DNA from: a virus
Length of the DNA: 23,767 bases
Virus record (IMG/VR): IMGVR_UViG_3300030333_006262
Location: 1 to 23,767 of that record
Strand: one strand, 5' to 3'
The position numbers and the translations under genes were made by a program. This document shows positions 2,673-21,144 of this stretch, piece after piece. Under the pieces are notes generated by a model. It saw nothing but the letters and a program-made list of their open reading frames with translations. It ran no database searches and was not told where the DNA came from. The first letter of the stretch is position 1. Each line of letters begins with the position of its first letter.

Positions 2673-4544
2673 ATGGCAGAAAAAATAGTATCCCCCGGAG
2701 TATTTACAAAAGAAATAGACGCTTCCTTTTTACCAGCAGCAGTTGGTGATATTGGAGCAGCAATCATAGGTCCAACAGTAAAAGGACCAGCTATGGTGCC
2801 AACCGTAGTAACATCTTATGCAGAATTTAAAACAAAATTTGGAGACACTGTTAAAAGTGGTTCAAATTATTATACATATTTAACATCCACAACTGCTGAA
2901 CAATATTTAAAACATTCAGGAAGATTAACAGTTGTTAGGGTACTTGATGGAACTTTTAGTGGTGCTAGTTCATTAGTTGTAACTGGTTCTGGTGGAACTG
3001 CTGGATATACAGGTAGTGCAGCAGCAAATTTAGCCGAAAATTCAGGAAATACTTCTTTTAAATTAAATACTATTGCACATGGTGCTAATATGAATAATGC
3101 AGCTGAACATGATGCAACTCATATGACAAATAATACAGGTTCAAATTGTATTATTATTAGTGGTTCATCTGATAACATTAGATGGGAAGTAACATCAACA
3201 AATGTATCTAAAGGTACATTTACTTTATTGATTAGAAGAGGTGATGATACTTACAAAAGAAAACAAATTTTAGAAACATGGAATAATTTATCATTAGATC
3301 CAAATCAAAATAATTACATTGGTAAAATGATTGGAGATTCATACGCTGATATACAAGGAACAGGTACAACTGATCCATATATTAAATATACAGGTAAATA
3401 TCCAACAAAATCAAAATATGTTTATGTATCAGATATTAATGATACAGTGGACTATCTTGATGAAAATGGTAATGTTAGGGTAGGAAGTGCTTCATCTTCT
3501 CTTCCAGGTATTGGTAGTGGTTCATATCACGGAACATTTATTGGTGGTAGTAATGGTGAAGCTGGATTTGATTCAGTAGGTAAACCAAGTGGAGATTATA
3601 CTAGTGCTGCTTATGATTTTTATGATAAAATAGGAACAACTAATTCACAAGGATTTAGATTAGATGGAAACGCTTCTAGAGGTGGAAGTGCTTATACAGA
3701 AGCTCTTGATTTATTATCAAATGCTGATGAATATGATATTAATCTTATATTAATGCCTGGTATCATTGATGATTTAGGAAATGATCATACATCTATTATA
3801 ACAAAAGCTGTTGATGTTTGTGAAAAAAGAGGTGATTCTTTCTTGGTTTATGATACTGTTAAGTATAGTGAACAAACAATATCAAATGTAACAGATAAAG
3901 CTGCTACAAGAGATTCGAATTACGCTGCTACATATTGGCCTTGGGTTCAAATAAGTGAAAATCAATTAGGTAGATATTGTTGGGTGCCACCATCAGTAGT
4001 ATTAGCTGGTATTTATGCATTTAATGATAAGATAGCTGCTCCGTGGTTCGCTCCTGCTGGTTTAAATAGAGGAGGATTGGATACAGTAGTTCAAGCATCT
4101 AGAAAATTAACTCATGCTAATAGAGATGATTTATACGAATCAAATGTTAACCCAATCGCTACATTCCCTGGACAAGGGGTTTGTGTATGGGGTCAAAAAA
4201 CATTACAGAAAAAATCATCAGCTCTTGATAGAGTAAATGTAAGAAGATTAATGATTAAAGTTAAGAAGTTTATTTCAGCTTCTTCAAGATTCCTTGTATT
4301 TGAACAAAATACTGCTCAAACAAGAGAAAGATTCTTGAATATAGCAAACCCATTTTTAGAGCAAGTTCAATCACAGAGTGGATTAAATGCATTTAAAGTT
4401 GTAATGGATGAAACAAATAATACACCTGACGTTGTAGATAGAAATATTCTTTATGGGCAATTGTTTTTACAACCAACGAGAACTGCTGAGTTTATTGTGT
4501 TAGATTTCACAGTACAACCTACAGGTGCAGCATTTCCAGAATAA
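2673..4544 (+). CDS. 18: Tail sheath protein, copy 1 (T4 gp18-like)
   Basis: A 623-aa protein starting at ATG 2673 after AGGAGA. T4 gp18 is 659 aa. It polymerises around the tube and contracts to drive the tube through the envelope. The N-terminus MAEKIVSPGVFTKEID is typical of contractile sheaths (SPGVYxxEID), with GPTVKGPAMVPTVV and FGDTVKSGSNYY next. The C-terminal domain carries ATYWPWVQISENQ, VPPSVVLAGIYAFNDK, PWFAPAGLNRGGL, GQGVCVWGQKTL and RVNVRRLMIKVKKFI, then FTVQPTGAAFPE at the end. These are the conserved inner-domain strands that bind the tube and neighbouring subunits. The middle (about residues 95-200) is the variable outer domain. It lies 14 nt upstream of a paralogous sheath gene. 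Confidence in the family is very high. Confidence 0.95.
   Translation: MAEKIVSPGVFTKEIDASFLPAAVGDIGAAIIGPTVKGPAMVPTVVTSYAEFKTKFGDTVKSGSNYYTYLTSTTAEQYLKHSGRLTVVRVLDGTFSGASSLVVTGSGGTAGYTGSAAANLAENSGNTSFKLNTIAHGANMNNAAEHDATHMTNNTGSNCIIISGSSDNIRWEVTSTNVSKGTFTLLIRRGDDTYKRKQILETWNNLSLDPNQNNYIGKMIGDSYADIQGTGTTDPYIKYTGKYPTKSKYVYVSDINDTVDYLDENGNVRVGSASSSLPGIGSGSYHGTFIGGSNGEAGFDSVGKPSGDYTSAAYDFYDKIGTTNSQGFRLDGNASRGGSAYTEALDLLSNADEYDINLILMPGIIDDLGNDHTSIITKAVDVCEKRGDSFLVYDTVKYSEQTISNVTDKAATRDSNYAATYWPWVQISENQLGRYCWVPPSVVLAGIYAFNDKIAAPWFAPAGLNRGGLDTVVQASRKLTHANRDDLYESNVNPIATFPGQGVCVWGQKTLQKKSSALDRVNVRRLMIKVKKFISASSRFLVFEQNTAQTRERFLNIANPFLEQVQSQSGLNAFKVVMDETNNTPDVVDRNILYGQLFLQPTRTAEFIVLDFTVQPTGAAFPE
3399..3473 (+). 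repeat. 75-bp perfect identity block, sheath copy 1
   Basis: This block is identical base for base to 5642-5716 in sheath copy 2, including all third positions, while the flanking DNA has diverged. Three further perfect blocks pair 3912-3951 with 6119-6158 (40 bp), 4296-4348 with 6503-6555 (53 bp), and 4491-4528 with 6698-6735 (38 bp). Confidence 0.9.
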
Positions 4545-4558
4545 ATAGGAGAATTTAA

Positions 4559-6751
4559 GTGGCAGAAAAAATAGTTTCACCGGGTGTTTTTACAAAAGAA
4601 ATAGATGCATCATTTTTACCAGCGGCGATTGGTGATATAGGTGCTGTAGTGATAGGACCTACTGTTAAAGGTCCAGCATTAGTTCCAACAGTTGTAAATT
4701 CATATTCGGAATATCAACAAAAATTTGGTGATACATTTAAAAGTGGTTCATCATATTATCAATATTTAACATCTACAACAGCAGAAAATTATTTAAGACA
4801 TGGTAGTAGACTTACAGTTGTTAGAGTTATGGGAGATGGTTATACAGGAGCTTCAGCCACTGTATCTGCTTCCATAGATCCATCTGTCGTTGGTGGTGGT
4901 GTTAAAGCTACTGGTAGTATAACATTTGCATCTAATGCATTATTAGGTTATTCAGCATCTATTGGTGGAGTAACATTTAATTTTACAAGTCGATCAATTG
5001 ATATAGGTTCAAATACAGCAACTAATTTATATGTTGTAACTGGATCTAATGTTACTAATACAGCAATTGCATTTAGAGATACTATTAATAATAGTGGTTC
5101 ATTACATAATTTGAGAATATCAGCTAGTAATGATTCTGGTAAAGTAGGAATTACTTCAAGTTTAGCTGGATATATGTCATCAGGTGAAAGTAATCCAGCA
5201 ACTGCTGGTGGTTCTAATATAGCTACTACATTAACTTTAGTAACATCATCTGTTGGTGGAGTGGAGGCTATGACAGTAAACCAAATGCAGGGTGGTCAAG
5301 ACTATAATGCAGGTGTATTTACAAATGCTTTCAAATTAAATACTATTGGTGATGGTACAATATTAAACAGTAATGGTACAATTGGAACAAATGATGTATT
5401 GTCAAATGGTACAAAAGATAATATAAGATGGGAAATTGGATCTTTTAATAAAAATAAAGGTACATTTACTCTTTTAATTAGAAGAGGTGATGACACCTTT
5501 AAGAGAAAACAAATTTTAGAAACATGGAATAATGTAAGTTTAGATCCAAACCAATCAAATTATATTGGTAAAGTTATTGGTACTCAATATGTTAGTATAG
5601 CTGGAACAGCTAATGATCCATATTTAACTTTTACTGGAGATTATCCAACAAAATCAAAATATGTTTATGTATCAGATATTAATGATACAGTGGACTATCT
5701 TGATGAAAATGGTAATATTAGAGATGCTAATCTTACAGCTTCATTACCAACTTTCCATAGTGGTTCAAATAGTGGTTCATTTGCTGGTGCATTTATGAAC
5801 GGTTCAGATGGAACTTTAACTCATCCATTAGCTCTTAATGAAAATATTGTGAATGCTAATACACAAGGATTTAATTTAGGTACACCTGCTGTTAAAGAAC
5901 AATATACAAAAGCACTTAATTTATTATCAAATAATGATGAATATGATTTTAATTTAATGTTATTACCTGGTATATTTAGAAATCTTTCTAATCATACATC
6001 GATTGTTACAAAAGCTATTGATGTTTGTGAAAAAAGAGGTGATGCATTTGTTGTCATTGATGGTGTTGATTATAGTGTAACCAGCGTATCAGACGCTACT
6101 GAACAAGCAAAAGCGATGGATTCGAATTACGCTGCTACATATTGGCCTTGGGTTCAAACATCAGATTCACAATTAGGTCAAAATGTATGGGTGCCACCAT
6201 CAGTAGTAATGGGTGGGATATTTGCTTTAAATGATAAATTGGCAGCTCCTTGGTTTGCTCCTGCTGGATTGAATCGTGGACAAATATCTAATGTTATTCA
6301 AGCGGCTAGAAAATTAACAGCAAGTAATAGAGATGATTTATATGAATCTAATGTTAATCCATTAGCTACATTCCCAGGTCAGGGAGTTGTTGTTTGGGGT
6401 CAAAAGACTCTACAGAAGAAATCTTCAGCATTGGATAGGGTTAATGTAAGACGACTATTAATCAAAGTTAAGAAATTTATCGCTGCTTCATCAAGATATT
6501 TAGTATTTGAACAAAATACTGCTCAAACAAGAGAAAGATTCTTGAATATAGCAAATCCATTCTTGGAACAAATTCAATCACAAAGTGGTTTGAATGCATT
6601 CAAAGTTGTTATGGATGAAACGAATAACACTCCAGATGTAGTTGACAGAAATATCCTTTATGGACAATTATTCTTACAACCTACAAAAACTGCTGAATTT
6701 ATTGTGTTAGATTTCACAGTACAACCTACAGGTGCTGCTTTTCCTGAATAA
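4559..6751 (+). CDS. 18: Tail sheath protein, copy 2, with inserted domain
   Basis: A 730-aa paralogue of the sheath just upstream, starting at GTG 4559 after AGGAGA. GTG is supported because the next residues (AEKIVSPGVFTKEID) match copy 1 exactly. The first ~95 and last ~200 residues are nearly the same as copy 1. The extra length lies mainly between residues ~100 and 245, a Gly/Ser/Thr-rich, beta-looking segment (ATGSITFASNALLGYSASIG, GVTFNFTSRS, AIAFRDTINNSG). This resembles the small beta domains often inserted in phage structural proteins, and probably faces outward. Both copies keep the C-terminal tube-facing strands, so both look functional. The weaker start codon suggests less protein than from copy 1. 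A terminator follows 24 nt after the stop. Confidence 0.93.
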   Translation: MAEKIVSPGVFTKEIDASFLPAAIGDIGAVVIGPTVKGPALVPTVVNSYSEYQQKFGDTFKSGSSYYQYLTSTTAENYLRHGSRLTVVRVMGDGYTGASATVSASIDPSVVGGGVKATGSITFASNALLGYSASIGGVTFNFTSRSIDIGSNTATNLYVVTGSNVTNTAIAFRDTINNSGSLHNLRISASNDSGKVGITSSLAGYMSSGESNPATAGGSNIATTLTLVTSSVGGVEAMTVNQMQGGQDYNAGVFTNAFKLNTIGDGTILNSNGTIGTNDVLSNGTKDNIRWEIGSFNKNKGTFTLLIRRGDDTFKRKQILETWNNVSLDPNQSNYIGKVIGTQYVSIAGTANDPYLTFTGDYPTKSKYVYVSDINDTVDYLDENGNIRDANLTASLPTFHSGSNSGSFAGAFMNGSDGTLTHPLALNENIVNANTQGFNLGTPAVKEQYTKALNLLSNNDEYDFNLMLLPGIFRNLSNHTSIVTKAIDVCEKRGDAFVVIDGVDYSVTSVSDATEQAKAMDSNYAATYWPWVQTSDSQLGQNVWVPPSVVMGGIFALNDKLAAPWFAPAGLNRGQISNVIQAARKLTASNRDDLYESNVNPLATFPGQGVVVWGQKTLQKKSSALDRVNVRRLLIKVKKFIAASSRYLVFEQNTAQTRERFLNIANPFLEQIQSQSGLNAFKVVMDETNNTPDVVDRNILYGQLFLQPTKTAEFIVLDFTVQPTGAAFPE
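5642..5716 (+). repeat. 75-bp perfect identity block, sheath copy 2
   Basis: Partner of the block at 3399-3473. It encodes the segment YPTKSKYVYVSDINDTVDYL and the residues just after it in both sheaths. The direct repeats are about 2.2 kb apart and could support recombination or gene conversion between the copies. Confidence 0.9.
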
Positions 6752-7985: not shown

Positions 7986-8171
7986 ATGTCAAGTACAAGT
8001 GAATTATATGAAACAATGAATAACTTATGGGAAGATTTTCAAACAAACCATAGAACATTTACAGAAAAAGGTAACAAATCTGCTGGAACAAGAGCTAGAA
8101 AAGCTGTAGGTGAAGTTAAAAAATTAGTTACTGCATACAGACAAGCATCAGTATCTGAATCAAAATCATAG
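7986..8171 (+). CDS. Hc1-like histone H1 homologue (small DNA-binding protein)
   Basis: A 61-aa protein starting at ATG 7986, two bases after the endolysin stop, with GGAGGT inside the end of that gene. A TTG at 7947 in the same frame is rejected because it would bury this binding site. Residues 14-50, LWEDFQTNHRTFTEKGNKSA then GTRARKAVGEVKKLV, follow the Hc1 pattern of bacterial H1-like proteins: a helix ending in F.EKGNK(A/S)AGTR.RKA, then a second Lys-rich helix with YR. Hc1 condenses DNA in Chlamydia, and short homologues occur in Bacteroidetes. It may compact phage or host DNA, or help packaging or ejection; this is inferred. It appears co-transcribed with the endolysin and the baseplate gene 9 nt downstream. 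Confidence 0.82.
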   Translation: MSSTSELYETMNNLWEDFQTNHRTFTEKGNKSAGTRARKAVGEVKKLVTAYRQASVSESKS

Positions 8172-8180
8172 GAGATAAAA

Positions 8181-8975
8181 ATGGCAGAAGATCAAATCAA
8201 AAAATCAATTGAAAGTAGTTTTGAGAAAAAACATACTTTTCCATCGGAAACTATAGATTTACCTAGTAAAGGTAAAGTTTATCCAAAAAATAGTCCTTTA
8301 TCTGATGGAACTATAGAATTGAAATATATGACAACTAAAGAAGAGGATATTCTAACATCACAGAATCTAATTAAAAAAGGTGTTGTTGTTGATAAACTTT
8401 TAAATTCACTTATTGTTACACCTGGTGTAACTACAGATGATTTAATCATTGGTGATAAAAATGCAATTATGGTAGCAGCTAGAATATTAGCATATGGTGG
8501 TGATTATGAAGTTGAAGTTATGAATCCAAATGATAATAGTAAATTTAATCATAAATTTGATTTGACAGCTTTAGAATTTAAAAATCCTGTTGAAGGTGTA
8601 GATTATTCTGAAAATAATTTTACATTAGATTTACCAGTAAGTAAAGTAACAATTACATTTAAACTTTTAGATGGTAAAGATGAGAGAAATATTGCTTCTC
8701 AATTAAAAGGTTTACAAAAAGTTGGTACACCTGGTGAAGTTTCAACTAGATTGAAAAATGTAATTACTTCTGTTAATGGTGATGATTCAAAACAAACTAT
8801 TAGTACATTTGTTGAAAATATGTTGTCAAAAGAATCACTTCTTTTAAGAGATGAAATTTCAAGACTTAATCCTGATATTGAATTATCACAAGATGTTGAA
8901 CTGCCTAGTGGAGAGACAGTATCATTGGCAATTCCAATGACTGTCGAATTTTTTTGGCCTAAGGCCGGAGCATAG
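8181..8975 (+). CDS. 26: T4 gp26-like baseplate hub assembly protein (zero-frame product)
   Basis: A 264-aa protein starting at ATG 8181 after AGGAGA. The N-terminal segment IDLPSKGKVYPKNSPLSDG, followed by IELKYMTTKEEDILTS and LIKKGVVVDKLLNSLI, is the hallmark of the T4 gp26 baseplate family (PF12322 type; T4 gp26 is 208 aa). In T4, gp26 helps hub assembly together with gp51 and the tape measure. The last codons run through a 7-T tract into TAG. An ORF in the +1 frame overlaps this end and has no start codon of its own, so a longer product of about 334 aa may be made by frameshifting. The short and long forms would then resemble the gpG and gpGT tail assembly chaperones of lambda. It sits upstream of the tape measure gene, as those chaperones do. 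Confidence 0.82.
   Translation: MAEDQIKKSIESSFEKKHTFPSETIDLPSKGKVYPKNSPLSDGTIELKYMTTKEEDILTSQNLIKKGVVVDKLLNSLIVTPGVTTDDLIIGDKNAIMVAARILAYGGDYEVEVMNPNDNSKFNHKFDLTALEFKNPVEGVDYSENNFTLDLPVSKVTITFKLLDGKDERNIASQLKGLQKVGTPGEVSTRLKNVITSVNGDDSKQTISTFVENMLSKESLLLRDEISRLNPDIELSQDVELPSGETVSLAIPMTVEFFWPKAGA
8946..8966 (+). promoter_or_regulatory. Candidate programmed frameshift site with hairpin
   Basis: GAA followed by seven T (8949-8955) gives zero-frame codons GAA TTT TTT TGG. A Phe-tRNA on the second TTT can re-pair perfectly after a +1 or -2 slip, and either enters the frame of the downstream ORF. A -1 slip would meet TAA at 8960. GGCC-TAA-GGCC (8956-8966) follows at once, a short all-GC stem that stands out in this AT-rich genome. 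Confidence 0.6.
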
Positions 8976-9186
8976 AGCTCAAATACACGAACAAATTTTT
9001 GCATTACTTTATAGTAGTAATGGTGGATTTACACATTCTGATGTGTATAATATGCCTACTTATATGCGAAATTTCTATTTACAAAAATTAGTAGAAGTTA
9101 AAAAAACAGAAAAAGAAGAAATGGAAAAAGCTAAGAAAAAGAAAGGTTCTTCATTTAGCAAACCTAATTTCCCAGGAAAACCATAA
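8956..9186 (+). CDS. Frameshift extension of gp26-like protein (no start codon of its own)
   Basis: This frame is open from 8941, just after a TGA at 8938, to TAA 9184-9186. It has no ATG, GTG or TTG until GTG 9043 and ATG 9052, and neither of those has a Shine-Dalgarno sequence. Yet its protein sense is clear from the overlap onward: RAQIHEQIFALLYSSNGGFT, then HSDVYNMPTYMRNFYLQKLV and a Lys/Glu-rich tail ending SKPNFPGKP. The motif NGGFTHxDVYNMPxYxRxFY is typical of short phage proteins that follow a baseplate or tail chaperone. I therefore read it as the second half of a fused protein made by a +1 or -2 shift, adding about 76 residues. The alternative is a single gene split by a homopolymer sequencing error. 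Coordinates start at the first codon after the slip. Confidence 0.68.
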   Translation, partial: GLRPEHRAQIHEQIFALLYSSNGGFTHSDVYNMPTYMRNFYLQKLVEVKKTEKEEMEKAKKKKGSSFSKPNFPGKP

Positions 9187-9269: not shown

Positions 9270-9494
9270 ATGTCAAAGAAAAAATCATATATGGATAAAG
9301 AAAATATCATCAATGAAGGTATAATTGATAAGATTTTTGATTATATTAAAAAACGCAAAATAAGAAAGCTTGAAAAAGCTTTTAGAGATCAACCTGAAAT
9401 CAAAGCAAAAATACGAAAATTTAATGATGATGCTAGAGCATTTGAAAAATATTTAAAATCACGTGGTATAGATCACAAAATACATAAGTTATAA
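9270..9494 (+). CDS. Small basic protein of unknown function
   Basis: A 74-aa protein (ATG 9270 after AGGAGG), rich in Lys and Arg. It opens MSKKKSYMDKENIINEGIID, continues with a helix KIFDYIKKRKIRKLEKAF, and ends in a region with repeated basic residues (FEKYLKSRGIDHKIHKL). Short proteins that begin with a KSYMD...IL/NEG..DK pattern are frequent in T4-like phages, but I do not know a role. It lies 18 nt upstream of the tape measure gene, is the first gene after a late-type motif, and is probably translated from the same message. A tail assembly accessory role is a guess from position only. Confidence 0.6.
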   Translation: MSKKKSYMDKENIINEGIIDKIFDYIKKRKIRKLEKAFRDQPEIKAKIRKFNDDARAFEKYLKSRGIDHKIHKL

Positions 9495-9512: not shown

Positions 9513-11810
9513 ATGTCAACAAAGATTTATAGAGAAGTAACATCGAAATTTAATGATGAGACTCAGAAATGGGAAACTATTTCTGAAGATTCTTATGATT
9601 ATGATGGACCTATGGATCTTGTGCAAGGTGGTGATATGGATGAAGATTGGAGAAATTTAGAAGAAGTATTCAAAGATTTAGGAAAAACTTTTGAAAAAGC
9701 TATGAAAAAAGCTGTTAATTCAGGAGCTAGTTCATATAAAAAATCATTTATATCTGCTGGAGCGGCTGTTAATAAAGCTTTAAAAGATAATACAGGTCAT
9801 CGAAGAGCTATTACTAGAGCAGGTTTAGAAGATTCTTCTAAACAATATTTATTAGCTTTAGAACAATTCCAACAAGGATTAATATCAGCTGCCGATTTCA
9901 GTTCAGCTGCACAAGAATTTGAAAATGCGATGCACAATAGTAAACTGGGTAAAAACACAAGAGATGAACTGTTAAGAGGAATTCATGGAGCTACAACAGC
10001 CGCAGAATTACAAGAAGCTCATGATAATATACAAGAGGCTTTTTCCGAAGGGATTCAGGATGGATTAGGTATTCTACCTAGCAATACATTTACAAAAGTT
10101 TTAGGAATTGATGCTGCATCTGAACAAGCATCAAAAGCTCTATCTGACAAATTAGCTCCAATGTTAACTGGTTTGGGTAAATTTATGGGTAGACATTGGG
10201 GTGCAGCGTTGGCTGTTGGTGTAGCATTTGCTATTATTAGTGCAATTTCATCTCTTACAGATGAAATAGGTGAAGAATTTGGTGCTATAGGTGCACAAAC
10301 ATTTGGTACTGATTTAATAGCGGCTAAGGCAACTGCTACAGAACTTGGTTATGAATTTTCAGATGTAGCTGATTCTGTCAAAGCCATGAGTAATGAATTT
10401 GGTATCTCTTTTGGTGATGCTATAGAAATAAGTAAAGCTTCTATGGATACAGCAAGAGCTCTTGGTATTAGTACAGACCAAGCTGGTGAACTTACAGGTT
10501 TATTAATGCAAATGGGTGGACATTCAGCTGAATCTGCTCAAAACTTTTTAAAACAAGGAGCTGCTCTTGCTAAATCTGCTGGTATTTCACCAGCTGCTGT
10601 TATGTCTGATATTTCAGGTTCAGCTGAAGAATTGGCTGGATTTATGAAAGATGGTGGTGAAAATATTATGCAAGCCGCTGTTGGTGCTAGAAAGATGGGA
10701 ATGAACTTGGGTGAAGTTGTTTCTATGGCAGATAGTTTATTAGATTTCCAATCTTCAATTGAAAAGGAAATGACAGCATCTGTGATGGTAGGTAAAAATT
10801 TAAATCTTCAAAGAGCTAGAGAATTAGCATTGGCTGGTGATTTAGCAGGTATGACTGAAGAAGTATTGGATAATGTAGTTTCTGAAGCTGAATGGAATGA
10901 ACTAAATGTTCTTCAAAGAAAATCTATTGCTGACGCTTTGGGTGTAAGTGTTCAAAGTATGAGTAAAATGGTAGAAGAATCAGGTAAAACATTTCAACAA
11001 CTTAAAGCTATGAGAGAACTTGATATTAGTGAAATTGTATCTGATGATGCTTTAAGTAATATAACAGTATTTATGAATAATTTAAAAGCAATTGGGTTAT
11101 GGTTTTTAACTGGTATATCTTGGATGACAAATTTTTTTGGTGAACAGGGTGAAGGTTGGGATATGGTTGGAACAGCAATTACACTTGTTCTTGTTGGGTT
11201 GGTATTATTGAGTGTATGGTTAGGATTTGTAGCAGTTCAAGGATATGTGGCAGGACTTGGTGCTGGAGCAGCTGCAGGTGGAGTAGGTGCATTAGATGCT
11301 GCTATGGTAGGATTAGCAGCTACCGCTCCTGTTGCAGGACCTGCGTTAGCTTCTCTAGCAGCTACTGGATGGTCATTAGCAGCTACTGCGGCTGCGCTTG
11401 CAGTTTCTATTGGTATGGTGGTTGCTGGTATAGTTGGAATTGTATATTTGCTACCTCCTGTTATTGATGCGTTTGGTAGATTAGGAACAGTTATAACTGA
11501 TAATATAATTAAATTGGTTGATAATGATACTATATTGGGAATTATAGGATTGGCTGGTGCATTTTATATATTAACTTCTGCATTAATCGCTATGTCAACT
11601 GCTGGTATGTTTGCTATGCCGGTTATTCAAGGTGTAGCTGCTATAGCTGGTATAGGATTAGGTGCTATGGCTATTGGTGGTTGGTTATTTGGTGGAAAAG
11701 ATGAAATTAAATGGATAGAATTACAAACGGAAATTCAAGCGGTTGCAACGGCTGTTAATGACCTTAAATCTTCTACATTAAAAGTTAAAATAGCGGAGGG
11801 GCAAATTTAA
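9513..11810 (+). CDS. Tail tape measure protein (gp29 position)
   Basis: A 765-aa protein starting at ATG 9513 after AAGGAAG. Tape measure proteins set tail length and occupy the tube lumen; T4 gp29 is 590 aa. Residues 1-225 are mostly helical and charged. A hydrophobic stretch lies near 229-250 (WGAALAVGVAFAIISAISSL). Residues 270-500 are an Ala/Gly/Met-rich helical region (AGELTGLLMQMGGHSAESAQ is representative). Two long hydrophobic regions follow, about 556-650 and 672-735, as expected for segments that may insert in the host membrane during ejection. The place between the gp26-like gene with its frameshift and the gp48/54-like gene fits T4 order. At 1.5 angstroms per helical residue the length would allow a tail of at most about 115 nm. 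Similarity to gp29 itself is not visible by eye; the call rests on composition and position. Confidence 0.8.
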   Translation: MSTKIYREVTSKFNDETQKWETISEDSYDYDGPMDLVQGGDMDEDWRNLEEVFKDLGKTFEKAMKKAVNSGASSYKKSFISAGAAVNKALKDNTGHRRAITRAGLEDSSKQYLLALEQFQQGLISAADFSSAAQEFENAMHNSKLGKNTRDELLRGIHGATTAAELQEAHDNIQEAFSEGIQDGLGILPSNTFTKVLGIDAASEQASKALSDKLAPMLTGLGKFMGRHWGAALAVGVAFAIISAISSLTDEIGEEFGAIGAQTFGTDLIAAKATATELGYEFSDVADSVKAMSNEFGISFGDAIEISKASMDTARALGISTDQAGELTGLLMQMGGHSAESAQNFLKQGAALAKSAGISPAAVMSDISGSAEELAGFMKDGGENIMQAAVGARKMGMNLGEVVSMADSLLDFQSSIEKEMTASVMVGKNLNLQRARELALAGDLAGMTEEVLDNVVSEAEWNELNVLQRKSIADALGVSVQSMSKMVEESGKTFQQLKAMRELDISEIVSDDALSNITVFMNNLKAIGLWFLTGISWMTNFFGEQGEGWDMVGTAITLVLVGLVLLSVWLGFVAVQGYVAGLGAGAAAGGVGALDAAMVGLAATAPVAGPALASLAATGWSLAATAAALAVSIGMVVAGIVGIVYLLPPVIDAFGRLGTVITDNIIKLVDNDTILGIIGLAGAFYILTSALIAMSTAGMFAMPVIQGVAAIAGIGLGAMAIGGWLFGGKDEIKWIELQTEIQAVATAVNDLKSSTLKVKIAEGQI

Positions 11811-19896: not shown

Positions 19897-21144
19897 ATGT
19901 ATACGGTTATACCAATATTTTCAAATCCAAATTTACATCCATTACATAAAGATAATGGATTATCAGCACTTTGGTGTCAACCAGAATCTGCAGAAGAACC
20001 ATTCTTTATAATACAAAAACATCCTGATTCGGATGATATACTTCAAGATTATAAATGGTTAGACGAAGAATTAATTCAAACACCTGATAAAAAACTATTG
20101 AATCATTTCTATGAATTTAAAGATGTAGTAGATAAAAACTTCATTTGGTGGAATGAAACGGGTAAACCATTTGACAATAATATTCGTAATAATGCAATAG
20201 ATTTTTTGGGTAGTAAGTTCTACAATGTTAAAAAACTCAATGAAATCATACCATTAACTAAACATAATGAGTATTGTAGTGAGGTTTATAGTAAAATGGT
20301 TAGAGCATATACAGGTGAGAATGATGATTATATGAATGATGCTATTAAAGCTTTTGGTTCGATTGAAAAGAATGGTATCAAAGTTTCAGATGATGTATGT
20401 GATATATTTGACATAAGAGTAAAAAAACATATATCAGATGGTAAGTTATATACAAGATATAATCTATGGACATCAACTGGAAGACCTTCAAATGCATTTG
20501 GTTCAGTTAATTTTGCAGCATTAACACCTGAACAAAGAAAGGCATTTATACCTGAAAATGATATGATGGTTGAGTTTGATTATGACGCATATCATTTGAG
20601 ATTAATAGCTGATTTGGTTGGATACCATACATTTGATAAAAATTCAGTACATCAACATTTAGCAGATTGGTATGGTTGTTCATATGAGGAGTCAAAACAA
20701 AAAACTTTTAAGTTATTATATGGTGGAATCGATAAGGAAACAAGAGAAAAAGTACCATTTTTTGATTTAACATATAGTTATATAAATAAGAAATGGAATG
20801 AAATAAATCGTTATAATTCTGTACAAACTGATATTTATAGACGGAAACTATTATTTGAAAACTATGAAGATTTGAATAGAAATAAACTTTTTAATTATTT
20901 GATTCAAGCGAATGAAACAGAAACAAATATTGTTACGATAAATGAATTACAACACTATTTATTAGGGAAGAAAACAAAATTAGTTCTTTATGGATATGAT
21001 AGTTTCCTATTTGATTTTTCTAAACAAGACGGAGTTATTGTATTGAAAGAAATTAAGAATATTTTAGAGAGAAATGGCCATATGACAAAAGCTCAAGCTG
21101 GTTTGAATTATGGTGAAATGAATAGCATTTCCGAAAGGTTATAA
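19897..21144 (+). CDS. Compact family-A DNA polymerase
   Basis: A 415-aa protein. The palm and fingers of family-A polymerases are recognisable. TSTGRPSNAFGSVNFAAL (residues 192-209) corresponds to the Pol I TSTGRLSS...LQNIP region. Motif A is EFDYDAYHLRLIADL with Asp228 as metal ligand. Motif B is SKQKTFKLLYGG with Lys267, Phe271 and Tyr275 in the places of Pol I Lys758, Phe762 and Tyr766. LFNYLIQANETE matches the NxxIQGTAA helix. Motif C is LYGYDSFLFDF with Asp368. Odd points: His233 replaces the usual steric-gate Glu of motif A, Tyr263 stands where Arg754 would be, and YDS replaces HDE. The N-terminal ~180 residues show no DxE exonuclease motif. The ATG has no Shine-Dalgarno; the next Met is residue 134, so this start is needed. 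The polymerase call is firm; a replicative role is likely but inferred. Confidence 0.85.
   Translation: MYTVIPIFSNPNLHPLHKDNGLSALWCQPESAEEPFFIIQKHPDSDDILQDYKWLDEELIQTPDKKLLNHFYEFKDVVDKNFIWWNETGKPFDNNIRNNAIDFLGSKFYNVKKLNEIIPLTKHNEYCSEVYSKMVRAYTGENDDYMNDAIKAFGSIEKNGIKVSDDVCDIFDIRVKKHISDGKLYTRYNLWTSTGRPSNAFGSVNFAALTPEQRKAFIPENDMMVEFDYDAYHLRLIADLVGYHTFDKNSVHQHLADWYGCSYEESKQKTFKLLYGGIDKETREKVPFFDLTYSYINKKWNEINRYNSVQTDIYRRKLLFENYEDLNRNKLFNYLIQANETETNIVTINELQHYLLGKKTKLVLYGYDSFLFDFSKQDGVIVLKEIKNILERNGHMTKAQAGLNYGEMNSISERL

Follow-up and report, generated by a model that had tools for sequence, protein, structure and literature searches.

A candidate programmed +1 frameshift in the T4-type tail assembly chaperone gene of mostly uncultured phages

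Results

The DNA analysed here (the window, meaning the whole stretch) is a 23.8-kb virus record with 31% G+C. On its forward strand a gp26-like gene occupies positions 8181-8975 and encodes in frame 0 a protein of 264 amino acids, the short form (TAC-N), which ends at the TAG stop codon 8973-8975 and falls into the Pfam family PF12322 and into phrog_150. The +1 frame is open over 8941-9186, that is, it opens ahead of the gp26-like stop codon, and its first start-like codons, GTG 9043 and ATG 9052 (9043-9054), both sit within a conserved motif, DVYNMP. No Shine-Dalgarno (SD) sequence was found before either of these codons, whereas GGAG- or AGG-like sites precede most other genes of the window. 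An earlier sequence-only reading had described this overlap of an ORF ending at 8975 with a frame that is startless until 9043 and has no ribosome binding site there, and the sequence confirms both observations.

The overlap also holds the seven T residues at 8949-8955 that this reading had pointed out, followed by GGCCTAAGGCC at 8956-8966. In frame 0 they belong to a block of four codons, TTT TTT TGG CCT (8949-8960, forward strand), encoding F257, F258, W259 and P260. The proposed slip lies at 8952-8955, where a P-site UUU at 8952-8954 would give way to UUU at 8953-8955, so that decoding would resume at GGC 8956. The resulting long form (TAC-NC, gp51-like) would span 8181-9186 with a predicted length of 334 amino acids; its C-terminal extension (8956-9186), putatively encoded through the frameshift, comprises 76 amino acids and a TAA stop codon.

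The gp26-like gene lies upstream of a tape measure candidate of 765 amino acids (9513-11810, forward strand), so designated by its position and because its counterpart in Flavobacterium phage immuto is annotated as tail tape measure; the candidate itself matched no Pfam family. In both immuto and Listeria phage LIS04 the gp26-family gene adjoins the annotated tape measure gene. In the window a single small ORF stands between the extension and the tape measure gene (9270-9494, 74 amino acids), an orphan with a good SD, for which we found no convincing family match and no match in the larger pieces of relatives. Further upstream are two adjacent tail sheath genes (2673-4544 and 4559-6751; PF04984 and PF17482), the second starting with GTG, whose products show 76% identity in the first 102 residues and 68% in the last 500; two sheath C-termini occur in only 3 of the 44 locus pieces longer than 9 kb. 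The tail operon also includes a gene for a small histone H1-like Hc1 protein (7986-8171; PF07432, E 1e-17), flanked by gp26 and a glycosyl hydrolase 108 gene. Elsewhere, a 415-residue ORF (19897-21144) has a weak match to family A DNA polymerases, below the Pfam cut-off.

The gp26-like ORF matches the Pfam family T4_baseplate (PF12322) with an E-value of 5.7e-9 (36.4 bits, cut-off 24.5), the family to which both T4 gp26 (208 amino acids) and the longer T4 gp51 (249 amino acids) belong, and the long form of the window matches PHROG 150 over positions 10-277 of 282. The extension alone gave no convincing match to Pfam or PHROG; it aligns to the C-terminal part of T4 gp51, and in hhalign its profile matched a profile of gp51 and cyanophage-type extensions with a probability of 91.8 and an E-value of 7e-7. 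For the short form, an AlphaFold2 model reached a pLDDT of 92.4, and the only convincing Foldseek match in the PDB was the HK97 tail assembly chaperone 2ob9 (probability 0.89, next matches at most 0.06), which lends moderate support (E 0.17, TM 0.48, target of 104 residues); a sequence search of the PDB returned nothing. The AlphaFold model of the long form was poor (pLDDT 53, from a bad mixed-fragment alignment) and was left out of all conclusions. Together, the PF12322 and PHROG 150 matches, the homology to gp51 and the fold match to 2ob9 make a T4-type tail assembly chaperone the most likely identity of gp26 of the window, whose short and long forms would be the counterparts of T4 gp26 and gp51, respectively.

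Relatives were gathered as 80 IMG/VR loci from a protein search and 80 further loci from a profile search, some of them on shared contigs, supplemented by six phage records and 11 MAG contigs. The layout was scored as a +1 extension longer than 50 amino acids after TTT followed by T or C. Such an extension is present in 156 of the 164 scored loci (IMG/VR and phage records); of the other eight, six are on contigs that end inside the extension, one (L040) has a downstream indel, and one, Xanthomonas phage XacN1, has its extension in the -1 frame. A 165th locus with a recognisable gp26, L107, has a broken gp26 ORF. The alignment of relatives that the sequence-only reading had proposed thus finds the two-frame layout kept in all 156 complete, intact loci. 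Isolate phages share this +1 layout, as do 10 loci on bacterial and archaeal MAG contigs. A scan of viral contigs with the motif alone (GAGTTTTTTTGGCCTN4CC; 80 loci fetched, a set overlapping with the loci found by searching) found the motif at the gp26 3' end in 79 of 80. Each of these 79 has an open +1 extension, complete in 75 and cut in 4; the 80th was a chance match.

Between paired loci that share 70-95% identity, the +1 frame of the extension gives a dN/dS of 0.124, close to the value of gp26 itself (0.163), as against 1.3 and 2.1 in the other two frames. The other two frames carry stop codons in 150/154 and 154/154 loci. The earlier claim that the overlapping frame encodes convincing protein is thereby upheld, far beyond chance. 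Between the gp26 stop codon and the first ATG, dN/dS is as low as 0.058. This ATG comes 31-32 codons past the junction in 115 of 154 loci and is the Met of a conserved Y-x-M-P (115/154), which makes it an implausible gene start. The lack of a start codon is widespread among the relatives if not universal, with no ATG, GTG or TTG ahead of the junction in the +1 frame of 101/154 loci and an upstream ATG in 12/154. These patterns of substitution and of start codons indicate that the overlapping +1 ORF is under protein-level selection and is without a start of its own.

Of 98 non-redundant loci, 86 have the 12-nucleotide block TTTTTTTGGCCT unchanged. Among 72 conserved degenerate codon columns of gp26, in which the median codon fixation is 66%, the codons of this block are the most fixed: TTT in 95% at F257 and in 100% at F258, and CCT in 97% at P260. 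Every other conserved Pro of gp26 favours CCA, and TTC makes up 19% of the Phe codons elsewhere in gp26, whereas F258 is always TTT. TTT followed by T or C is found in 101/101 non-redundant loci, a count that holds partly by construction since the slip codon was picked by seeking this very pattern. The T run, by contrast, is conserved in part, being seven long in 89 of the 101 loci and only 3 or 4 long in 9 loci that retain the layout; the variants TTC TTT TGG, TTT CTA TGG and TTT CTT TGG keep TTT followed by T or C yet break the run and rule out perfect re-pairing at -2. The base before the two Phe codons (8948, an A in the window) is G in 60, C in 27, A in 14 and T in none of the 101 +1 loci.

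It may be added that this base is G or C in 87/101 loci, against 19% G+C at third codon bases (81% A or T in the genes of the +1 loci). Avoidance of T explains only part of this excess, as A is depleted too.

Several possible stimulators were looked for around the site. The GGCC-TAA-GGCC that the sequence-only reading had noted directly after the T run is indeed present in the window; as a conserved hairpin GGCC-N3-GGCC was rejected, being kept in 5 of 98 loci. RNA structure around the site gave no strong common signal across the 98 loci (mean z of -0.67 downstream and -1.39 upstream), and no conserved internal SD was found at the shift site of the non-redundant loci. The conserved A-site codon UGG is no rare one (13.4 per 1000 in the window) and GGC, the codon in the A site after a +1 slip, is the rarest Gly codon of the window (0.5 per 1000). 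This runs contrary to the rare-codon rule that +1 shifts usually follow and counts against the proposal, as does the conservation of the frame-0 Pro after UGG, which shifted ribosomes would never read. The same Pro is absent from -1 relatives and lies in the disordered end of the model. The fixed UGG-CCU may reflect A-site and downstream context, or a role in the short form.

The frame of the extension differs among T4-like phages. Seven phages (P-SSM2, S-PM2, HTVC008M, Cr30, phiM12, PhiW-14 and KVP40) have an extension in the -1 frame after a gp26-family gene, in each case behind T TTT TTC or T TTT TTT. T4 and CP220 have two separate genes, and the +1 layout is found in the clade of the window, in the 484-kb uncultured phage LR756508, in Listeria phage LIS04 and in Streptococcus phage GXN1. 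T precedes Phe-Phe in 8/8 phages of -1 layout versus 0/101 +1 loci, and at the level of sequence this base makes or abolishes the -1 heptamer T TTT TTY. The site of the window lacks a -1-type X XXY YYZ layout, and its extension is in +1. The pattern is what one would expect if T were needed for tandem -1 slippage and harmful at a +1 site. In a protein tree the T4 and cyanophage group stands apart from the group that holds the +1 phages.

Two of the -1 phages deserve separate mention. In XacN1 (L086, 2950-3995) the extension is in -1 at T TTT TTT A and part of it is annotated separately as ORF316; in the tree this phage falls among the +1-phage group, on a long and unsure branch. Vibrio phage KVP40 (L183/L195), which like T4 belongs to the Straboviridae, has the -1 layout with GAT TTT TTC after its gp26-family gene, which suggests that the split into gp26 and gp51 arose within the Straboviridae.

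Discussion

The gp26-like gene very probably encodes, judging from its sequence and that of its relatives, a T4-type tail assembly chaperone made in two forms through a programmed +1 ribosomal frameshift. According to this model, most ribosomes would end at 8975 and yield the 264-residue short form, and a minority, with peptidyl-tRNA-Phe on UUU 8952-8954 and UGG in the A site, would slip one base forward. The tRNA-Phe would re-pair perfectly on UUU 8953-8955 (UUC in some relatives), and reading would resume at GGC to give the 334-residue long form with its helical C-terminal extension. If lambda gpG/gpGT and T4 gp26/gp51 serve as a guide, the tape measure protein would be coated by the short form, and its connection to tail tube or hub assembly would fall to the rare long form. 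The support is drawn from sequence and consists of conservation, the reading frame, signs of purifying selection, homology and the fold, and from these we infer the ribosome as the agent of the slip, its efficiency and the roles of both products. The suggestion of the sequence-only reading that a fusion product of about 334 amino acids forms a gpG/gpGT-like pair with gp26 gains support from the conservation, the coding signal, the fold and the comparison with T4 gp26/gp51. On these grounds, a short and a long chaperone appear to be made in this way by a large group of T4-related phages, most of them marine.

Phe-tRNA has a single anticodon, GAA, and on UUU it can move +1 to UUU or UUC with full pairing. 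When the codon preceding the RF2 stop codon was randomised, UUU was among the slipperiest P-site codons (PMC10885494). The shift site is also carried by phage immuto, whose genes are without SDs, which makes a need for an internal SD unlikely. One may speculate, at slightly less than even confidence, that TTTTTTTGGCCT together with a preceding non-T is a self-contained +1 signal that works without an SD, a stop codon or RNA structure, and that the direction of shifting has flipped as phages evolved, by way of the extension's frame plus the base before Phe-Phe (T giving -1, non-T giving +1), with the conserved UGG-CCU exerting its effect from the A site and the mRNA entrance.

Other explanations of the layout have to be weighed against a forward slip on UUU. 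A +1 slip at the Pro codon (CCT-N) would produce the junction FFWP-RPEH, with FFWP common to both forms, and would accord with the near-invariant CCT (97%) of the frame-0 Pro and with the +1 shifts known at Pro codons of Listeria phages (PMC5009743). However, re-pairing on CTN would be poor, and there would be none for the CCA (L108, L168) or ACC (LIS04) variants, and UUU is more strictly fixed than CCT. In addition, the second residue after FF is hydrophobic in -1 relatives and T4 gp51 (FFRI, FFSL, FFYF, FKLL), at the place of the L in FFGL, so that the long form probably includes a translated GL; we consider slippage at Pro very unlikely. The sequence-only reading had allowed for either a +1 or a -2 slip. 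A programmed -2 frameshift as in phage Mu, with the junction EFFF-GLRPEHR, would end in the same frame, and the seven T permit perfect re-pairing in the window and in most relatives, but in 10 of 101 non-redundant loci the -2 position is not a Phe codon and re-pairing of tRNA-Phe is impossible, whereas at the +1 position it is always Phe (101/101). The forward slip is thus the half of this claim that stands, and a -2 slip is very unlikely.

Slippage of RNA polymerase, dropping or adding a U on the T run so that some mRNAs carry one fused ORF, would make sense of the usual run of seven. It is disfavoured, as is the -2 slip, by the relatives that break this run, some having just 3 or 4 T within an intact layout, and it does not account for the constraint on TGG CCT and on the base 5' of the run; we rate it less probable still. 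Expression of the extension as a separate gene, by a non-canonical start or by re-initiation after the gp26 stop codon, has an even smaller chance. The 12 loci with an upstream ATG and the annotation of Microcystis phage Mel-JY01, where the extension is given as a gene of its own, speak for it, and the absence of an SD is weak evidence in Bacteroidota-like hosts, where genes such as those of immuto are without SDs. Against it are the two-thirds of loci (101/154) without any start-like codon before the junction, the position of the first ATG inside a conserved domain with strong purifying selection ahead of it, and the 12-nucleotide motif, which it would leave unexplained. Finally, homopolymers are error-prone and the window is a single contig, but the layout recurs in well over 100 contigs that were assembled independently and in isolate phages, some of the sites having no long T run, so that an error in the T count is refuted. 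A +1 slip of tRNA-Phe on UUU remains the reading that we prefer.

Frameshifting in the G-T genes of tail chaperones is widely conserved, T4 being an exception (Atkins review, PMC5009743). The window resembles lambda G/GT (PMC5009743) in arrangement, with two chaperone forms, a frameshift, a tape measure gene downstream and a C-terminal extension, a comparison of arrangement and not of protein homology; lambda, however, shifts -1 and the window +1. T4 gp26 and gp51 share with the window the PF12322 family and a homologous C-terminal part in the long form, but they are two paralogous genes on opposite strands, without a frameshift. T4-like phages of -1 layout are alike in having one gp26 gene, Phe-Phe at the site and a homologous extension, which in their case stands behind T TTT TTY, whereas the clade of the window has it in +1 and always lacks the T before Phe-Phe. 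The TAC genes of Vandenendeviridae and Andersonviridae (PMC12846349) likewise have poly-T at the 3' end of TAC-N and an extension annotated as intergenic or hypothetical, but there the site is GTTTTT and the shift -1.

Forward shifts are known from other systems. In bacterial RF2 (prfB) a P-site tRNA also slips +1 onto a U-rich codon (CUU-U). The RF2 shift occurs at a stop codon and has an SD upstream of it. In the window, unlike in RF2, the A-site codon is not a stop but usually Trp UGG, and an SD is seemingly unnecessary. Among virion assembly genes, +1 shifts are described for the TAC of HSTV-2 (predicted) and for the major tail and capsid proteins of Listeria phage PSA (PMC5009743), the PSA shift taking place at Pro CCC and HSTV-2 being an archaeal virus.

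As to novelty, the claim of the sequence-only reading that such a frameshift is undescribed in this gene family needs to be narrowed. A 2022 study by Vladimirov, Gautam and Davidson reportedly named the T4-like tail assembly chaperone genes and, going by its title, put forward a mechanism other than frameshifting. PMC12846349 cites this study in connection with -1 signals of the poly-T kind in chaperone genes of T4-like phages, and among papers citing it we found no +1 detail. The chaperone role and -1 shifts are thus already in the literature for the T4-type family, and it is the +1 class that appears undescribed in the searchable literature, which leaves out Vladimirov et al. 2022.

T4 has been seen as the exception to tail chaperone frameshifting. 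Our analysis suggests that a large, mostly uncultured branch of the T4 chaperone family appears to use a +1 shift where other T4-like phages carry a -1 layout or, in T4, two genes, which makes the family a compact natural experiment for asking how the direction of frameshifting is set. It also provides a conserved +1 motif to annotation tools, which lack a general motif of this kind for forward shifts. The annotation of immuto includes no more than a 36-codon stub of the extension and that of LIS04 nothing, and many phage genomes would in this way gain a missed coding region of 70-100 amino acids.
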